The notes under the pieces: model-generated
The model's database searches: none
Told to the model about the DNA's origin: nothing
The model's input: the letters and a program-made list of their open reading frames with translations, nothing else
Shown: piece by piece, positions 11,036 to 34,782 of the stretch
Layout of the letters: each line of letters opens with the position of its first letter
How positions within the stretch are numbered: the stretch's first letter is position 1
Source: Miltoncostaea marina
GTDB taxonomy: Bacteria > Actinomycetota > Thermoleophilia > Miltoncostaeales > Miltoncostaeaceae
NCBI RefSeq assembly: GCF_018141525.1
Contig: NZ_CP064655.1
Coordinates: 620,001 to 684,000, forward strand
Reading direction: 5' to 3'
Length of the DNA stretch: 64,000 nt
Position numbers and translations under genes: made by a program

Positions 11036-11072
11036 GCGCGGGGGGTCCCGGGTTCCGCCGGAACCCCCCGCG
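11036..11072 (+). terminator. Hairpin downstream of the P-domain protein gene
   Basis: A GC-rich hairpin (GCGCGGGGGGT...ACCCCCCGCGC-like arms around CCGCCGG) begins 12 bases past the stop. No U tract follows, so termination is likely but not certain. Confidence 0.5.
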
Positions 11073-11092
11073 CAGGCGATCGAGTGACGAAC

Positions 11093-11123
11093 TTGGCGAT
11101 TCGTCCTCCGCTCCACGTAAGCT
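11093..11123 (+). promoter_or_regulatory. Promoter candidate for the thioester-domain gene
   Basis: TTGGCG (11093-11098) and TAAGCT (11118-11123), 19 bases apart, lie about 78 bases before the start codon. Spacing is slightly long, so this is tentative. Confidence 0.4.
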
Positions 11124-11200
11124 GCCCCCTGCACGACCGCCGACTGGGCCGATCGGACCAGCCGGCCTTCCCCGTTCGGTCCACCTCGGAGGTCGACTCG

Positions 11201-12529
11201 ATGACGCACGCTGTAGGCGGGAGGCTCCTCCAACGAGCGGTCCTCGCACTGCTCGCCCTCCTCGCCGCCGTGCTCGCGCTGCAGGTCACCACGGCGACGG
11301 CGGCACCCCAGACGCAGACGTACATCGGCGCGGACGACGGGCCGACGCCCGACATCTACCGCAGCGACATCGCCGACTACTTCAAGCCGGACGGCTCGCC
11401 GGCCGCCATGGTCGGGCAGGCCGGCACGCTCAACCTCGCGCTCGACGGCGAGCCGGTCGTCGCCTACTGCGTCGACGTGGACGCCGGGCTCAGCACGACG
11501 CCGGTCACCTCGGACGTGACCGAGGTGCCGCTCACGACCGTCGACGCCCGCGCAAAGCTCTACATCCTGCTCAACGCCACGCCGTCCGGCGCGCCGACGG
11601 CCGACAAGCAGCACCGGGCGGCCGTCGCGCAGGTGGCGATGTGGGTGCTCGAGGGCGAGCTCCGCGAGACGGACCCGACCTCGGACGCCGCGCTCAACGC
11701 GGACGTCGCGGCGCTGATCGCCACCGCCCGCGCCTGGGCGGCCACGCCCGGCACGCTGTCCCTGACCGTCGCCCCGCCGGCCGCGGGCGCCACGACGGCC
11801 ACGGTCACGGTCACGGGCCGTCCCGGCTCGGTCGTCGCGCTCACGATCACGGCCGGCCAGGGCACCCTCTCGGCCGGGCAGCTCACGGTCGGCGCGGGCG
11901 GCTCGGCCACCGCGACCCTGACCTCGCCCGCGCCGGGCACGGTCACCGTCGGCGCCAGCACCACCGGCGACGGCCAGCTCTTCCGGATCAGCCCGAGCAA
12001 CGCGAGCCAGGCGACGAACTACGCGCGCCCGACCGTCCTCACGGCCACGGCGCCGGTCACATTCGCCCCGGCGCAGGTCACCCCCGGCCCGGGCCCGGGC
12101 CCGGGCGTGACGCCGAGCGTGCCGGTCACCGGCCGTCCGGCGGGCCCGATCGCCCTGCGGATCAGCAAGACGGCCCCGACCACGCGGCGCGTGCTGCAGC
12201 TCGTCAGGTACCGCATCACCATCCGCAACACGACCCGCCGGGCCGCCACGGGCGTCGTCCTGCGTGACCGCATCCCGCGCGGCCTGACCTTCGTGCGGGC
12301 CAGCCGCAAGGTGCAGATCCGCGGCGGCGCGGTCGTCGTCCGGCTCGGCCGCCTGGCCCCGGGCGCGCGGCGCACGGTGACCATCTGGATGCGCGCGAGC
12401 GCCGGCGTGAAGGGCGCCCGCACCAACGTGGCGACCGTCCGCGGCACGAACGTCCGTCCGCGCTCCGCGCGCGCCGGCACCACGTTCCGTCCGCTGGCCG
12501 GCCGCGTCATCCCCGCGGTGACCGGCTGA
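11201..12529 (+). CDS. Secreted thioester-domain (TQXA-like) protein with DUF11-type domain
   Basis: Exported protein (442 aa). After a signal peptide (residues 1-35), residues about 40-170 resemble the thioester domain of Gram-positive adhesins. VAYCVDVD places a Cys at 90, and AQVAMWVLEG places a Gln at 144, the pair that forms an internal Cys-Gln thioester in that family. A Thr/Ala-rich Ig-like stretch and a PGPGPGPG linker follow. Residues about 335-425 resemble DUF11, a repeat domain of surface proteins (YRITIRNTTRRAATGVVLRD). No LPXTG or C-terminal membrane helix is visible, so anchoring is unclear. The ATG at 11201 has GGAGG eight bases upstream. Confidence 0.78.
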   Translation: MTHAVGGRLLQRAVLALLALLAAVLALQVTTATAAPQTQTYIGADDGPTPDIYRSDIADYFKPDGSPAAMVGQAGTLNLALDGEPVVAYCVDVDAGLSTTPVTSDVTEVPLTTVDARAKLYILLNATPSGAPTADKQHRAAVAQVAMWVLEGELRETDPTSDAALNADVAALIATARAWAATPGTLSLTVAPPAAGATTATVTVTGRPGSVVALTITAGQGTLSAGQLTVGAGGSATATLTSPAPGTVTVGASTTGDGQLFRISPSNASQATNYARPTVLTATAPVTFAPAQVTPGPGPGPGVTPSVPVTGRPAGPIALRISKTAPTTRRVLQLVRYRITIRNTTRRAATGVVLRDRIPRGLTFVRASRKVQIRGGAVVVRLGRLAPGARRTVTIWMRASAGVKGARTNVATVRGTNVRPRSARAGTTFRPLAGRVIPAVTG

Positions 12530-12670: not shown

Positions 12671-14362
12671 GTGAGGCCACACCGCAGCCGACACCGCCTG
12701 CTCGCGTGCGCCGCCGTCGCGGCCGGCCTGGGCGTGTCGTCGGCCGGCGCCCAGGCCGCGCCGCCGCCGCCGACGGTCACCCCGTCGCCGGGTCCGTCGG
12801 CGAGCGCGACGCGCACCTTCACCTGGCCCGCCATGGCGCCGTCCGTCGCCGGCCCCGTCACCTACGAGGTCGCGGTCACGACGACCGCCGCCCAGCCGAT
12901 CATGGGGCAATCCGTGAGCGGCACGTCGGCGCAGCTGTCGCTGCCCGAGGGCGACGCCTGGTTCCACGTCAGGTCGGTCGAGCCCGCCGCCGTGCCCTCG
13001 CACAGCGACTGGAGCACCTTCGGGCCGTACCGCACCGACCTGACCGACCCGGTCATCGCCGTGCAGCAGACGCCCGCGGCGAACCCGCGCGGGTGGGTCA
13101 ACGCCGCCGCGACCGTCACCTTCCTGTGCACCGACGCAAACCTCGCGACCTGCTCCGACCCCGTGACGTTCGGCGAGGGCGCCGGGCAGGTCGCCACCGG
13201 GACGGCGACCGACGCCGTCGGGCGCTCGGCCACGGCCACGGCGACGGTCAACGTCGACCTCACCGCCCCGGCGCCGGCGCAGCCGGCGGCCCCGGGCGCG
13301 GGCGCGGTGGTGACGTCGACGCGCCCGGAGTTCCGCTGGGCGCCGGCGTCCGACCCGCTCTCGGGCCTCCAGTACTACGAGGTCTGGGTCGAGGGGCGCG
13401 GGAAGGTCGGGTCGACGTGGGCCACCCGCACGAGCCTGGTCTCGAGCCAGACCCTTCCGGCCGGCCCGGTGCGCTGGTACGTGCGCGCGGTCGACAACGC
13501 GAACAACGCGGTCGCGTCCGAGGTCGTGGCGTTCACGCTCAACCCCGACCGCCCCCAGCAGCCGGCCGACCCCCCGCCCGGCCAGCCCGCCAGGACGATC
13601 ACCGACTCCGGCACCCCGGCGCCGCCGCTGGTGCGCCGCCCGGCGGGCACCCGCGCGCCGCGCCCGGCGCTGCTGCGCGCCCGCGCGCTGCGGCCCGCGG
13701 CCGGCCGCACGGTCCGGACGCTGCGGCCCACCCTGCGCTGGCTGCGCCGGCACCGCATGGCGCGGCTCTACAACGTCCAAGTCTACGAGCTGCGGCGCGG
13801 GCGCGTGCGCAAGGTGCTCACCGCGTTCCCGCGGCGCAACGCCTACCGGGTGCCGAAGGGCAAGCTGCGCGCCGGGCGCCGCTACGTCTGGCGCGTCTGG
13901 CCGTACCTCGGCACGAAGGGCTACGCGAAGGCGCCGGTCGGCGTCAGCTACTTCGACGTGAGGGCGCCGCGGCGGCGGCAGGCGGAGATCACGCTGTCGG
14001 CCCGCCAGCTGCGCATCAACCAGCGCATCTCCCAGGCGGCCGTGCGGCGCGTCAACGAGCTCGCCGCCCACCTCGACGGCCGCCCCGCCCCGGCGTCCGC
14101 GGGCGCATCGGCGACGCCCGGCCGGGTGCGCCTCGCGGCGCGCCAGCTGCTCATCAACCAGCGCATCTCGCAGGCCGCGGTGCGACGCGTGAACACGGTG
14201 CGGGCGCGTCTGGAGGGACGCCCGATGCCGAAGCGGGCGGCCGCCGCGGCGACGCGCGGACCGGTGCGGCTCTCCGTGCGCCAGCTGCGCATCAACCAGC
14301 GCATCGCGCAGGCGCCGGTGCGCCGGATTCGCGCGATCCGGCGCGAGCTGGGCCTGGACTGA
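12671..14362 (+). CDS. Secreted Ig-like protein with three C-terminal 'INQRISQAAVRR' repeats
   Basis: Exported protein (563 aa) of unknown function. A signal peptide (LLACAAVAAGLGVSSAGAQA) is followed by fibronectin/Ig-like segments (FTWPAMAPSVAGPVTYEV; FRWAPASDPLSGLQYYEVWV). A Pro-rich linker and an Arg-rich domain around 340-435 come next. Residues about 441-466, 486-511 and 532-557 are three copies of a repeat with core RQLxINQRIxQAxVRR. The same repeat occurs three times at the C terminus of the lysyl oxidase at 32689-34782, in an otherwise unrelated protein. Repeat segments are predicted helical and strongly basic. The GTG start follows a -10-like box directly. I do not recognise a described family for the repeat. 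Confidence 0.8.
   Translation: MRPHRSRHRLLACAAVAAGLGVSSAGAQAAPPPPTVTPSPGPSASATRTFTWPAMAPSVAGPVTYEVAVTTTAAQPIMGQSVSGTSAQLSLPEGDAWFHVRSVEPAAVPSHSDWSTFGPYRTDLTDPVIAVQQTPAANPRGWVNAAATVTFLCTDANLATCSDPVTFGEGAGQVATGTATDAVGRSATATATVNVDLTAPAPAQPAAPGAGAVVTSTRPEFRWAPASDPLSGLQYYEVWVEGRGKVGSTWATRTSLVSSQTLPAGPVRWYVRAVDNANNAVASEVVAFTLNPDRPQQPADPPPGQPARTITDSGTPAPPLVRRPAGTRAPRPALLRARALRPAAGRTVRTLRPTLRWLRRHRMARLYNVQVYELRRGRVRKVLTAFPRRNAYRVPKGKLRAGRRYVWRVWPYLGTKGYAKAPVGVSYFDVRAPRRRQAEITLSARQLRINQRISQAAVRRVNELAAHLDGRPAPASAGASATPGRVRLAARQLLINQRISQAAVRRVNTVRARLEGRPMPKRAAAAATRGPVRLSVRQLRINQRIAQAPVRRIRAIRRELGLD
13991..14341 (+). repeat. Three in-gene copies of the INQRIS repeat
   Basis: Copies start at 13991, 14126 and 14264 and share the core RQLRINQRIS/A-QAxVRR. 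Spacings of 135 and 138 bases keep the reading frame. The DNA of the copies is also similar, indicating duplication within the gene. Confidence 0.85.
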
Positions 14363-14366
14363 CCGG

Positions 14367-17300
14367 CTAGCGGGAGTCGGCCGCCGCGGGCACCCGGTCC
14401 GGTCGCGGCGCCCACGGCGAGATGACCGGCGCGCCGCGGGTCGCCTCGGGGGCGCGCACCCGCGCCTCGGCGGTGCGCGCCACGCCGAGCATGGCGACGC
14501 AGATGCCGAGCAGGATCCAGAGGGTGCGCTGGTACTGCCCGGAGATGAAGACGTCGGCCACGAGCACCCCCACGGTGCCCGCCAGGACCGTCCTGCTGAG
14601 CAGCTCGAGCTTGAGGTCGCCCGCCAGGCGGAAGAGGTGCGCCGCCCGCGTCGCGGCCACGAGGCAGATGAGCAGCAGCACGCCGAACAGCGCCATGCCG
14701 ACCGTCCCCAGCTCGACGAGCACGTGCAGGTACATGTTGTGGGCCACCTTCGGCGTCTCGGTGAAGAAGTCGCCGCGGCGCACCAGCCCGGGCTGGGCGA
14801 GGTAGCGGGGCGTCGCCTCGGTGTAGGTGCCGGCCCCGGAGCCCTTCGTGGGGTGGTCGCTGTAGGCGCGCCAGCCCACCCGCCAGATGTCGGTGCGCCC
14901 CGTGCCACCGTTCGAGGCCAGCTCGTCGCTCTGCACGATCTGGCTGAGCCGCTCCCGGGTCTGGGGCGCCGCGGCGACGTTGATGTAGCCGACCACCACG
15001 ATGCCGACGACCACGCTCGCGGTCAGCACCCGCAGGCGCCAGCGGCCGCCGAAGATGGTCCAGACCGCGAGGGCGGCCACGATCGCGACGATCCCCCCGC
15101 GCGAGCCGGAGAGCACGATGCCGAGCGCGCAGACGAGCGCGCCGCCGGCGAACAGGAAGCGGCGCAGCATGGTGTCGGCGTAGGCGGCGAGGGCCGCGCA
15201 GATGAGCAGCGCGGGGACGCAGAAGGCGGCGAACTCGTTGGCGTCGGCGAGCGTGCCGGCCAGCCGCCCCTCGGGGGTGTTGCCCGTGGCGATGCCGACG
15301 AGCGTCGACAGGACCGCGCTGATCGCGTAGGCGCCGCACAGCAGGATGGCGGCGCGCCGGTTGCGGGCGGCGGTGAACACGATGGCCAGCAGCAGGATGC
15401 CGAGCGCGTAGCGCTGGATCGCCTCGACCGTGTACCCGGGGTTGAGCGACCAGAGGATGGACGCGACGCACCAGGCCATGAAGGCGACGGCCACGAAGGC
15501 GAGCAGCGGGTTGTGGGCCGTGAAGCTCAGGTAGCGGCGCCGCGCCGACGGGTAGCGCAGCGTCACCAGCCAGGTGATCAGCAGGATCACGCCGGCGCCC
15601 TTCGTGATCAGCGACTCGCCGGCGCCGATCACCAGCGCGAGCGGCTGGATGATGATGAAGGCGACGGCGCCCACGGTGATGTCGGACAGCAGCAGCGCCA
15701 TCACCGCCAGGCCGGCGAGGCCGCCGATCGCCAGGAGCGGCGAGGCGCCGACCGCGCCGCCCACCACGAGGGCGGCGGCCACGGTGCCCAGGGGCAGCAT
15801 GGCGTTGGGGGAGGCCAGCGACGCGCGCCACTCCGGCCAGCTGGCGCGGATCAGCGCCCGCGTGCCGCGGAAGCGCGGCGGGATGCGCAGCTCGTCGGCG
15901 CTGAGCTCGCCGCTGCCGAGCAGCGTGGCCAGCGCCGCGGCGATGCCGAGCGGCACGGCGACGGCCAGCCGCAGCAGGCCGGGCCCGGGCGCCTGCAGCA
16001 CGACCCAGCACACGGCCCCGCCCACCACGGCAGCGACGGTCGAGCGGGCCACCGTGGCGGCCAGGGCCCGCTCCTGGAGGGGCAGGTGGCGCTTGACCAG
16101 CACGTAGTGGCCGGCCACGAAGCCGAAGATGGCCACGTTGGTGCCGATCGCGGCGCCGTAGAGGCCGATCGTCGGCAGCAGGATCAGGTCGAGCACCAGG
16201 TTGCCCAGGAAGGCCGCGAGGGCGATCCACTTGCGCGCCGACGCCACGCCGATGAAGTCGAGCGCGCGCGAGAGGATCGGCGCGAGCCCGATGAGCACGA
16301 TGTAGGGCAGCAGCGCCTGCAGGACGGTCGCGCTCTCGGCGAACTCCGCGCCGAGCGCCGCGGCGATCAGGTCGTCAGCCGACGCGGCCGTGATCGCGCC
16401 GATCACGAGGTAGAAGATCAGCGACACGCGCAGGGCCTTCGACAGCAGCGGACCGGCGGTGGCCGGGTCGGCCGAGGCGATGCGCGGCGTGACCGACGAC
16501 GCCAGGCTCAGGCCGAGCAGGCCGAGGATCGTGGCCACGCGCCAGGGGGCGTCGTAGAGGCCGACGGCGTCCGTGTCGATGAAGACGCCCAGCAGCACCA
16601 GGTCGACCCGCTCGAACAGCAGCCACGCGACCCCGGCCAGCCAGATGTGGTTGCCGTAGCGCAGGATCGTGGCGCTGGAGGCCTCGACCTCGGGCAGCCC
16701 GGCCCGGCGCTCGAGGTACGGGCGCATGTACCAGAGACCCACCGCGACCGTCGCCATGTAGCCGATCGCGTTGCCGAAGATGGCCGCCACGACCCCGAAG
16801 CCGCCCATCAGCAGGGCGAGCACGACGACGAACTCGACCACCGCCTTGACGAGCGACATGACGGCGATCAGGCCGCCCCGCTGCACGCCCTCGTAGACGC
16901 CGGTGACCCACTGGTAGCCCGCGCTGAAGAACAGCGCGAGCGCGGCCGCGCGCACGGCGTTCTCGAGCTCCGGCTCGCCGAACGCCGAGGCCAGCGGGCC
17001 GGCGATGATCGCGAGCAGGCCGAAGGTGGTGCCGGCCACGACCGTCCGCAGCCGCAGGCCGCGCAGGATCACCCGCGAGATGCCGATCCCGCCGTTGTAG
17101 CCCTCGGCCACCCACCGCGAGGTGGCCGAGTCGATGCCGAGCGAGGCGAACAGCGCGGCCAGCGTCGCGATGGTGAGCGCGAACGCGTAGTCGCCGTAGC
17201 CGTCCAGGCCCAGCATGCGGGCCAGCACGATGGTCAGGACCCCCGTGGAGAGGGCCCCGACCACCCGCGACCCCAGGATCAGGATCGTCTGGCCCGCGAC

Positions 17301-17372
17301 GCTCGTCGTGCGCCGCTCCTCCGCCGGGGGCGCGCCCGCGGGCGCGACCGCGGCGTCGACCGGATCAGCCAC
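14367..17372 (-). CDS. Wzx-type flippase fused to Wzy/WaaL-type O-antigen polymerase/ligase
   Basis: A 1001-residue membrane protein made of two normally separate proteins. Residues 1 to about 505 look like a polysaccharide flippase of the MATE/MVF superfamily (GQTILILGSRVVGALSTGVL; LGIDSATSRWVAEG; about 12-14 helices). Residues about 520-1001 look like an O-antigen ligase/polymerase with a second set of about 12 helices, the SGSRGGIVA segment, and VAHNMYLHVLVELGTVGMAL (about 876), the Wzy_C signature. The GTG start has GGAGG upstream. It would flip the lipid-linked repeat unit and polymerise or transfer it on the outer face. The gene lies 27 bases downstream of the Wzz-like gene. Confidence 0.88.
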   Translation of the reverse strand: MADPVDAAVAPAGAPPAEERRTTSVAGQTILILGSRVVGALSTGVLTIVLARMLGLDGYGDYAFALTIATLAALFASLGIDSATSRWVAEGYNGGIGISRVILRGLRLRTVVAGTTFGLLAIIAGPLASAFGEPELENAVRAAALALFFSAGYQWVTGVYEGVQRGGLIAVMSLVKAVVEFVVVLALLMGGFGVVAAIFGNAIGYMATVAVGLWYMRPYLERRAGLPEVEASSATILRYGNHIWLAGVAWLLFERVDLVLLGVFIDTDAVGLYDAPWRVATILGLLGLSLASSVTPRIASADPATAGPLLSKALRVSLIFYLVIGAITAASADDLIAAALGAEFAESATVLQALLPYIVLIGLAPILSRALDFIGVASARKWIALAAFLGNLVLDLILLPTIGLYGAAIGTNVAIFGFVAGHYVLVKRHLPLQERALAATVARSTVAAVVGGAVCWVVLQAPGPGLLRLAVAVPLGIAAALATLLGSGELSADELRIPPRFRGTRALIRASWPEWRASLASPNAMLPLGTVAAALVVGGAVGASPLLAIGGLAGLAVMALLLSDITVGAVAFIIIQPLALVIGAGESLITKGAGVILLITWLVTLRYPSARRRYLSFTAHNPLLAFVAVAFMAWCVASILWSLNPGYTVEAIQRYALGILLLAIVFTAARNRRAAILLCGAYAISAVLSTLVGIATGNTPEGRLAGTLADANEFAAFCVPALLICAALAAYADTMLRRFLFAGGALVCALGIVLSGSRGGIVAIVAALAVWTIFGGRWRLRVLTASVVVGIVVVGYINVAAAPQTRERLSQIVQSDELASNGGTGRTDIWRVGWRAYSDHPTKGSGAGTYTEATPRYLAQPGLVRRGDFFTETPKVAHNMYLHVLVELGTVGMALFGVLLLICLVAATRAAHLFRLAGDLKLELLSRTVLAGTVGVLVADVFISGQYQRTLWILLGICVAMLGVARTAEARVRAPEATRGAPVISPWAPRPDRVPAAADSR

Positions 17373-32688: not shown

Positions 32689-34782
32689 TCAGGACCGGGC
32701 GCCGGGCGCCAGGTTGGCCGCCACGATCGAGCGGTCGGCGAAGTGGCCGCCGTCGAGCCCGGCCTCCAGCTCGGCCACGAGCGCGTTGGAGCGGCGCACC
32801 GCGGCCTGGGCGATCCGCTGGTTGACCCGCAGCTGGGCGGCGGTGAGCGGCAGCGCGCGCGTCCCCCGTCGGCCCGGGGCCGCCACGCGCGTCCTGCTCG
32901 CCGGCGGGCGCGCCACGGAGAGGTCCGCCGCGACCACGTCCAGGCCGGCGGCGAGCTTGCCGCGCTCGACCGCCCCGGGCCGGAGGTCGCCGCCGGTCAG
33001 GCGCCCGTCGAGCCGGGCGCGCAGGCCGTTGAGCCGGCGGATCGCCGCCTGCGACACGCGCTGGTTGATGAGCAGTTGGCGGCCGCTCAGGGTGACCCGC
33101 GCGCCGCGCGCCCGGCGGGGCGCGGCGACGGCCACCGGCCGCGGGTCGGCCGCGGTGGTCGCCGCCGGCGTGGGCCGCGGCGCCGTGCGGATGCCCGGCC
33201 CGAGGGTGCGCGCGGTGATGCCGCCGCCGGCCAGGTCGCGCGCCGCGACGCCCGCGGCCAGCCAGCGCTCGACGCCGCTGGCGCGCCGCACGGCCGCCTG
33301 CGAGATGCGCTGGTTGATGAGCAGCTGCCGCGCCGACCGGGTGACCCCGCCGCCGCCGCCGCGGCCGATCGGCGCGGGGGCCTGCACCTGGGGCGTCGTG
33401 ACGCGGATCGCCACCTCGGCGGCGGCCGAGGGGTCGTCCCTGCTGGTGGCGCGGACGGTCACGGTGCCGGCCGTGGCCGGCGCGGTGAACAGGCCGTCCG
33501 GGGTGATGGATCCGGCGGAGGCCGTCCACGTGACGCCCGACGGGCCGTTCGTCACGATCGCGGAGAGCTGCAAGGACAGGCCCGCCACGATGCTCGGCTG
33601 GGCGCCGGAGATCGCGACCGTCGTGACGGGCGCGCCGACCTGGATCGCCACGGCCGCCTGCGGCCGGACGCGCGGGAAGCCCGGCTCACCGGCGTCGAAG
33701 GCCTCGTAGTGGAACACGTCGCCGCCGCGCTGACCGGGGTTCGCGGTGTAGCTCAGCTCGCCGGCGGTGAGCACGTCGCCCGCGCCGATCACCCGGTCGC
33801 CCTGGCGCAGCTCCCCGCGCTGCGGCGCCGTGGTGATGCGGAAGCGCAGCGGGCCGGGGTCGCAGTACCCGCGGTCCTCGGGGTCGCCGCGCGTGAAGCA
33901 CTCGCTGACGAACTCCTCGGCCTGCAGCGTCACGCGGGCGGCCCGGCCGGGGTCGACCCGGCCGACGTCGAGCCCCTTCGGCAGGAAGCCCGGCACGACG
34001 GCCGGGGTGAACGCGTGCCCGTTGTTCGACTCGTCGCTCTCGGCGATGACGTCGGTCGGGTCGGCCTGATTGGCGAGCTCGTAGCGACCCGGCGGGGTGC
34101 TCGACACGTCGACCCACTGGTACGGCAGGCCGGCGTCGTAGACGTCGCGCCAGCCCGGCGTGATGCCCATGACCAGCGGCCCGCCGCGGGGCCCCTGGCC
34201 CGGGTCGCTCTGCAGGCAGAAGTCGTTGGTCCCGGAGCTGTACCGCGCGCCCAGGCCGCCGCCGAGGTACTTCGAGTCCTCGAGGCAGAACCCGACCTCG
34301 GTCTTCTGGGCGAGCGCGACCTGCTGCCGGCCGTCGGGCGTCCAGAGGCTGTACTCGCCGGCGTTCTTCAGGTGGTAGTGGCGGTGGCCGTCGGCCACCT
34401 CGAAGATCACGACCGGCCTGCGCCCGGAGGGGTGGGTGACGACCGCGTCGTCCGGCCCCACCCGCTGCCGCACGACGCGCATGGCGCCCTGGGCGTCGGG
34501 CTGGTCGGCGAAGATCTCGAGCTCCGCCGGCGCGCCGGGCCGGTTGGTGACGTACCCGTCGAAGCGCATCAGGAGCCGCTCGCCGTCCCGATCGACGTAG
34601 ACGTGGGTCGTCGGGTCGCCGGGCGGCTCGGAGATCAGGTCGGGCAGGTTCGGGGCGCTGGTCACGGTCGCGGCGGCGACGGCGAGCGCAGCCGCGGCCA
34701 GCCCGGCGGAGCCGAGCAGCCCGAGGACCGCGCGCCGGCGCGGGCGCCGGGCGGCGTGGCGGGGATCTGCGGAAGGGGTCAT
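32689..34782 (-). CDS. Secreted lysyl oxidase-like protein, paralogue 2, with three 'INQRISQAAVRR' repeats
   Basis: Exported protein (697 aa) closely similar to paralogue 1 over about 460 residues. It has the twin-Arg signal RRPRRRAVLGLLGSAGLAAA, copper motif DGHRHYH, Lys before VGFCLED, Tyr in DVYDAGLPYQW, cadherin-like and Big2-like domains. The C terminus differs: instead of the Cys-pair domain it has three repeats (ARQLLINQRISQAAVRRASG; GRQLLINQRVSQAAIRRLNG; AAQLRVNQRIAQAAVRRSNA). They are interleaved with GDLRPGAVERGKLAAGL-like segments reminiscent of trimeric fibre repeats. Thus the tail was exchanged while the enzyme core was kept. The ATG follows a short AGGG site. Active-site residues look complete. 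Confidence 0.88.
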   Translation of the reverse strand: MTPSADPRHAARRPRRRAVLGLLGSAGLAAAALAVAAATVTSAPNLPDLISEPPGDPTTHVYVDRDGERLLMRFDGYVTNRPGAPAELEIFADQPDAQGAMRVVRQRVGPDDAVVTHPSGRRPVVIFEVADGHRHYHLKNAGEYSLWTPDGRQQVALAQKTEVGFCLEDSKYLGGGLGARYSSGTNDFCLQSDPGQGPRGGPLVMGITPGWRDVYDAGLPYQWVDVSSTPPGRYELANQADPTDVIAESDESNNGHAFTPAVVPGFLPKGLDVGRVDPGRAARVTLQAEEFVSECFTRGDPEDRGYCDPGPLRFRITTAPQRGELRQGDRVIGAGDVLTAGELSYTANPGQRGGDVFHYEAFDAGEPGFPRVRPQAAVAIQVGAPVTTVAISGAQPSIVAGLSLQLSAIVTNGPSGVTWTASAGSITPDGLFTAPATAGTVTVRATSRDDPSAAAEVAIRVTTPQVQAPAPIGRGGGGGVTRSARQLLINQRISQAAVRRASGVERWLAAGVAARDLAGGGITARTLGPGIRTAPRPTPAATTAADPRPVAVAAPRRARGARVTLSGRQLLINQRVSQAAIRRLNGLRARLDGRLTGGDLRPGAVERGKLAAGLDVVAADLSVARPPASRTRVAAPGRRGTRALPLTAAQLRVNQRIAQAAVRRSNALVAELEAGLDGGHFADRSIVAANLAPGARS

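Follow-up and report, generated by a model that had tools for sequence, protein, structure and literature searches.

A putative single-chain, three-unit attachment tail on secreted proteins of the order Miltoncostaeales

Two unrelated secreted proteins encoded in a 64,000-nucleotide stretch of the Miltoncostaea marina genome (hereafter the window, with a G+C content of 76%), one Ig-like and the other carrying a lysyl oxidase domain, end in three copies each of the same repeat, which raises the question of what such a tail is and what it would do for its carriers. We propose, with a probability of about 50%, that the three-copy tail is a single-chain pseudo-threefold module acting as a non-covalent cell-surface attachment tag, and that related proteins with one copy form the same module as homotrimers. 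Such a tail would allow surface proteins to be recognised in an order that has hardly been studied by experiment, and would explain how many secreted proteins may still be displayed where the genome has no sortase, SLH or CWB2, while the rule of one or three copies would constitute a clean case of a homotrimer become a single-chain pseudo-trimer. Naturally occurring proteins that are little more than the tail make the proposal directly testable.

The Ig-like protein (12671..14362, plus strand, 563 residues, GTG start) has a signal-peptide-like N-terminus, gives no Pfam family at E<=1 and bears a short tail. Its three tail helices lie at 14000..14074 (ARQLRINQRISQAAVRRVNELAAHL; core 14018-14050), 14138..14215 (core 14156-14188) and 14276..14350 (core 14294-14326), and correspond to helices 10-34, 56-81 and 102-126 of an AlphaFold2 model of the segment 13973-14359; the stop codon follows three residues past the third helix. 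The secreted lysyl oxidase protein (32689..34782, minus strand, 697 residues, Pfam Lysyl_oxidase at E 7.9e-10) bears a long tail, in which every helix is followed by a stalk of decapeptides. Unit 1 consists of a helix at 33256..33333 (core 33283-33315; model residues 10-35) and a stalk at 33178..33249 (VAARDLAGGGITARTLGPGIRTAP), for which isolated bridges are predicted at residues 38, 43, 48 and 53 and a strand at 57-61. In unit 2 the helix is found at 33007..33084 (core 33034-33066; residues 93-118) and the stalk at 32926..33000 (LTGGDLRPGAVERGKLAAGLDVVAA), with bridges at 121, 126, 131 and 136, that is, those of unit 1 plus 83, and a strand at 140-145. Unit 3 has its helix at 32761..32841 (core 32791-32823; residues 174-200), and its stalk runs with the C-terminus over 32695..32757, with bridges at 202, 207, 212 and 217, those of unit 2 plus 81.

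Both sets of three are the final segments of their reading frames, and a motif search of the window matches all six copies to the core NQ[RK][IV][SAG]QA[APVIG][VIL]RR with 0 mismatches, so that the original prediction of three copies at the end of each protein, with an almost invariant core, was borne out. It had put the copies of the oxidase near residues 490, 590 and 660; the cores begin at 490, as predicted, at 573, which makes the second figure slightly off, and at 654. It had also described them as alternating with fibre segments. These GDLRPGAVERGKL segments are present, but they lie within the repeated unit of the 57 long tails, and the three copies would thus make up one domain rather than two alternating repeats. 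The two proteins were both real carriers, but they are not alone, the same genome holding 13 proteins with the motif. The view that the tail belongs to no known family stands: searches against Pfam, NCBIfam and PHROGs gave no family above chance, PDB sequences gave no match, and the motif was not found in the literature searched.

The gene of the Ig-like protein adjoins those of a flippase/O-antigen-ligase protein and of an AAA/GNVR tyrosine-kinase-like protein, neighbours that hint at surface polysaccharide synthesis nearby and at nothing beyond it. The first of these neighbours, at 14370-17372 on the minus strand, is an unusual fusion: a single reading frame of 1001 residues combines a Polysacc_synt flippase domain (residues 29-299) with an O-antigen ligase domain, Wzy_C (745-896), next to the kinase-like protein. 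A secreted DUF11 protein is encoded at about 11050-12529 on the plus strand; its N-terminal part (YIGADDGPTPD...AYCVD...QVAMW) resembles a thioester adhesin domain and has no Pfam match at 1e-3.

The motif forms a sizeable family with a strict copy number. Searching the genome of the window, a single contig of 3.37 Mb, with a 55-residue consensus yielded 37 places at E <= 10, most of them between 1e-5 and 1e-27. Ten of the 13 motif proteins have exactly three C-terminal copies, one has a decayed two-copy tail, and the remaining two are small, adjacent and carry a single, N-terminal copy. Across the Miltoncostaeales, a count based mainly on an HMM search of six-frame translations gives 65 proteins with three copies and 25 with one, and no protein exceeds three; per-genome counts are lower bounds because several genomes are fragmented. 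The figure of 65 comprises 62 proteins found by the HMM and three others (L039 and a pair in L133) in which one copy has diverged but keeps the expected spacing. In L126 and L155 the three copies are divided between frames, and L036 and L154 have two copies each. The first of this last pair (L036:6169-7719, genome positions 1136168-1137718) is another lysyl-oxidase-like protein with a decayed tail, one copy being in frame and the second out of frame past a frameshift. Long tails (n=57) are spaced at about 83 and 80 residues (80-84 and 77-83 in almost all), while short tails (n=5), among them that of the Ig-like protein, are spaced at about 45 and 45. Comparing long tails across proteins, copy 1 resembles copy 1 (likeness 0.55) more than it resembles copy 2 (0.49), and since copies at the same position are the more alike, the triplication probably came before the spread of the tail.

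In sequence searches, the tail is restricted to the order Miltoncostaeales, which belongs to the class Thermoleophilia. Of 42 genomes from the order, a 36-column profile detects the motif in 28, with E values down to 1.8e-19 for one genome, and the motif is kept across ten genera. A class-wide search of 249 genomes placed every match within the same family except one marginal match, and a phylum-wide search of 296 genomes added two matches that look like chance. As candidates for a wider spread, the matches in G327 and G424 fall within unrelated sequence, for instance MutM-like and DTD-like genes, and the frames at the marginal match in G222 contain no such protein. Viral contigs, phage records and plasmid records were also searched and hold no relatives of the repeat, and a phage or plasmid origin was rejected on this basis. 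Named records with the tail are mostly Thermoleophilia or actinobacterial metagenome-assembled genomes, two of them labelled Miltoncostaeales. Two tail-bearing contigs are labelled Gemmatimonadota and Bifidobacterium breve (L093, JAOTWJ010000178.1, and L101, CAMCDF010000009.1, respectively); these are probably misbinned or mislabelled metagenomic contigs of Miltoncostaeales.

The carriers of three copies are extracytoplasmic in character. By a simple rule for signal peptides, each of the 51 three-copy proteins whose start is intact has a signal-peptide-like N-terminus (46 by a crude script and five by eye), and their other domains are mutually unrelated and all of extracytoplasmic type: trypsin, OmpA, P-domain, lysyl oxidase, GH39, SpoIID, glucose/sorbosone dehydrogenase, NHL, FG-GAP, PKD and Ig types. 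Four secreted proteins (L132, L134, L148 and L149) consist of the tail, a signal peptide and a spacer, with hardly anything else. The original prediction had asked whether family members are always secreted and C-terminal: the 51 intact three-copy proteins look secreted and carry the motif at the C-terminus, with none of the cytoplasmic carriers that would have spoken against the idea, but in one-copy proteins the motif is N-terminal. Its description of the tail as helical and strongly basic applies in part. The tails are helical and mostly basic, with a mean net charge of +11 for long tails and +14 to +22 for short ones, against an average of -11 for the preceding 300 residues, but the charge of long tails spans -6 to +25.

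Structure prediction suggests how three copies could make one domain. For the long tail, AlphaFold2 predicts three equivalent helix-plus-stalk units folding together, with a pLDDT of 93.4 and a pTM of 0.87 from 54 aligned long tails (profiles and AlphaFold2 alignments were built from the same sequences). In each unit a helix 26-27 residues long precedes the pattern E-HHHE----E-HHHE, and the isolated bridge residues are equivalent across the three units (38/121/202, 43/126/207, 48/131/212 and 53/136/217) and all hydrophobic. Equivalent bridge positions in three copies are what is expected for parallel units in register, and we infer from this secondary-structure register that the three segments run parallel. 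For the short tail, three helices are predicted at a pLDDT of 79 and a pTM of 0.67. Linkers would fit a parallel arrangement in both cases: about 20 residues separate the helix-only short units and more separate the long ones, enough to return to the start. An ordinary up-down, spectrin-like bundle for the short tail was rejected, the best Foldseek E value being 1.3 and the TM-score normalised to the query at most 0.30. A canonical heptad coiled coil was ruled out as well, because the hydrophobic moment of the helix at period 3.5 was not significant (392 of 2000 shuffles reached it), and so was a pentapeptide-repeat solenoid for the stalk, whose predicted pattern alternates in ten residues and which gives no PF00805 match at E<=1. 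Conserved residues stand all round the helix: Q13, R14, Q17 and R21, plus N12, I15 and A19.

Two known surface modules offer the closest comparison. SLH domains (PF00395) usually occur three in tandem, together building a pseudo-threefold unit around a parallel three-helix core; they are carried by surface proteins that are otherwise unrelated and bind the wall non-covalently, and CWB2 (PF04122) anchors proteins at the surface through three tandem copies, again with a parallel three-helix core (PMC6081394). The tail resembles SLH in having three tandem copies as one unit (65 proteins, none with more, and a model that folds the three together) on unrelated secreted proteins, and shares with CWB2 the three tandem copies. 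It differs from SLH in that its unit is a single helix of 25-27 residues, which may or may not have a decapeptide stalk, where SLH has a two-helix lobe, and in that the aligned copies show no TRAE motif, no PF00395 match and no Foldseek match in the PDB; compared with CWB2, its unit is smaller and gives no PF04122 match. We conclude that the tail belongs to neither SLH nor CWB2: its sequence fits neither family, and no structure from either one matched its model. A third likeness is to trimeric alpha/beta coiled coils and phage tail-fibre stalks with beta-layers (PMC4786415), whose three segments have isolated one-residue bridges at corresponding positions, as predicted for the tail. In that survey SLH, a monomeric pseudo-trimer, was the only beta-layer protein that was not a homotrimer (PMC4786415). 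These fibres are homotrimers of separate chains with periods of six or nine residues (PMC4786415), whereas the tail fuses three units in a single chain and its stalk has a period of ten. Foldseek found no PDB match for the long-tail model at E<=10, as would be expected if the proteins closest to it are trimers built from individual chains.

The one-copy proteins suggest a link to such fibres. Their motif is N-terminal, directly behind the signal peptide, and the layout continues from the signal segment through the helix, and often a decapeptide stalk, to one of at least two kinds of head. Their invariant columns lie in the helix only, and both classes have the same helix with the same invariant residues. 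Helix-free decapeptide stalks bearing the same heads are found in other Thermoleophilia: L188, L189 and L191 have the C-terminal head and the stalk as in one-copy proteins but lack the INQRISQAAVRR helix, their start being a different membrane segment. In L189 and L191, collagen-like Gly-X-Y repeats lie between the stalk and the C-terminal head that one-copy proteins share. Collagen repeats form triple helices, so these two proteins are probably trimers. One head matches the phage tail family phrog_17420 weakly, at E 4e-4. The neighbourhoods of one-copy genes at three loci hold ordinary metabolic genes and no obvious partner.

We propose that one repeat would be one third of a single domain, and that three copies in a chain would give three parallel helices, each backed in long tails by its short decapeptide stalk. 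Placed at the C-terminus of secreted proteins, the module would work like three-copy SLH or CWB2 and retain enzymes and adhesin-like domains at the envelope; the partner bound would most likely be an anionic polymer of the wall or surface. The small fibre-like one-copy proteins may build the same module as homotrimers, and the tail would then be a fibre base fused into one chain. The surface role is suggested by analogy, and so is binding to a wall polymer, which is plausible. A replacement anchor is plausible because neither sortase nor SLH nor CWB2 was found in the window's genome (G000), G019 or G013. SLH likewise gave no match in the two window proteins, and CWB2 none in these or in six genomes tested; sortase is present in some relatives (G010, G012 and G014). 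That mostly basic tails follow acidic upstream regions suits an anionic ligand, which the variable charge of long tails does not uniformly support. In favour of the proposal we count the copy-number rule, the nearly fixed spacing, the register of the model, the poor fit of the short tail to ordinary bundles, the collagen-like repeats of L189 and L191, the invariant helix of one-copy proteins and the secreted carriers; against it count the non-canonical helix, the sortases of some relatives and the one-copy gene neighbourhoods, which show no partner. As a tentative extension, less probable than the proposal itself, the tail may join SLH and CWB2 as a third three-copy module for surface attachment that evolved independently: a homotrimeric fibre base that was fused and later came to be carried by dozens of secreted proteins in one order without the usual anchors, the one-or-three rule recording that step.

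Several other explanations can be weighed against the same data. The three-copy tail could serve assembly instead of binding a wall polymer: one-copy proteins would form surface fibres, and the tail would dock onto these, cap them or assemble together with them. The shared helix of the two classes and their joint presence in G000, G014, G019, G020 and G021 would fit, yet a one-copy protein was detected neither in G013, with its 23 three-copy proteins, nor in G010, G011 and G012 (G013 and G010 being fragmented), and many genomes of genus g12 have the one-copy protein alone. As neither class seems dependent on the other, we think this reading unlikely. Somewhat less likely again is a folding or stability cap, the tail being a compact pseudo-trimer or spacer with no ligand of its own. 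The predicted fold is indeed compact, and a fold requiring three copies would explain the copy number, but conservation all round the helix probably goes beyond the usual packing needs of a helix bundle, and secreted proteins made of little besides the tail speak against a cap. A C-terminal sorting signal for a dedicated secretion or attachment machine, like type IX CTDs or PEP-CTERM, seems improbable to us: the tail is strictly C-terminal on many unrelated secreted domains, but it has no C-terminal transmembrane segment or cleavage-like motif, the one-copy class carries the motif N-terminally, and a non-exhaustive search identified no partner machine. Nor do the tails, which end in a stalk or a helix, contain an LPXTG-like motif with a hydrophobic segment and a basic end. 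An artefact, in which recent duplications or low-complexity GC-rich sequence mimic conservation, is refuted and could be entertained only as a very slight chance, for although G+C is high and repeats can spread, the strength of the matches in the window's genome, the presence in 28 of 42 genomes across ten genera and in small one-copy genomes, the fixed copy number and the greater likeness of same-position copies all oppose it.

Returning to the putative attachment module, three observations on its members may be added. One locus (L185, G015:C6:91207-92585) encodes two adjacent proteins of one-copy type with a strongly diverged helix (SDLKAANERSQAAIRKANTI; LNEIRQQQTIIQRQNIRAIKQVN), and the HMM thus misses distant members. 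In G013 (L115, L116 and L118), 70 copies were found and 23 three-copy proteins read, some of which are paralogues arranged in tandem, three or four in a row. Finally, the unit 1 stalk of long tails (for example L033:6797-7459, and most of alignment A3) has one conserved cysteine (D[LI]CGG) after helix 1, with no counterpart behind the other two helices; it is missing from the lysyl oxidase of the window.
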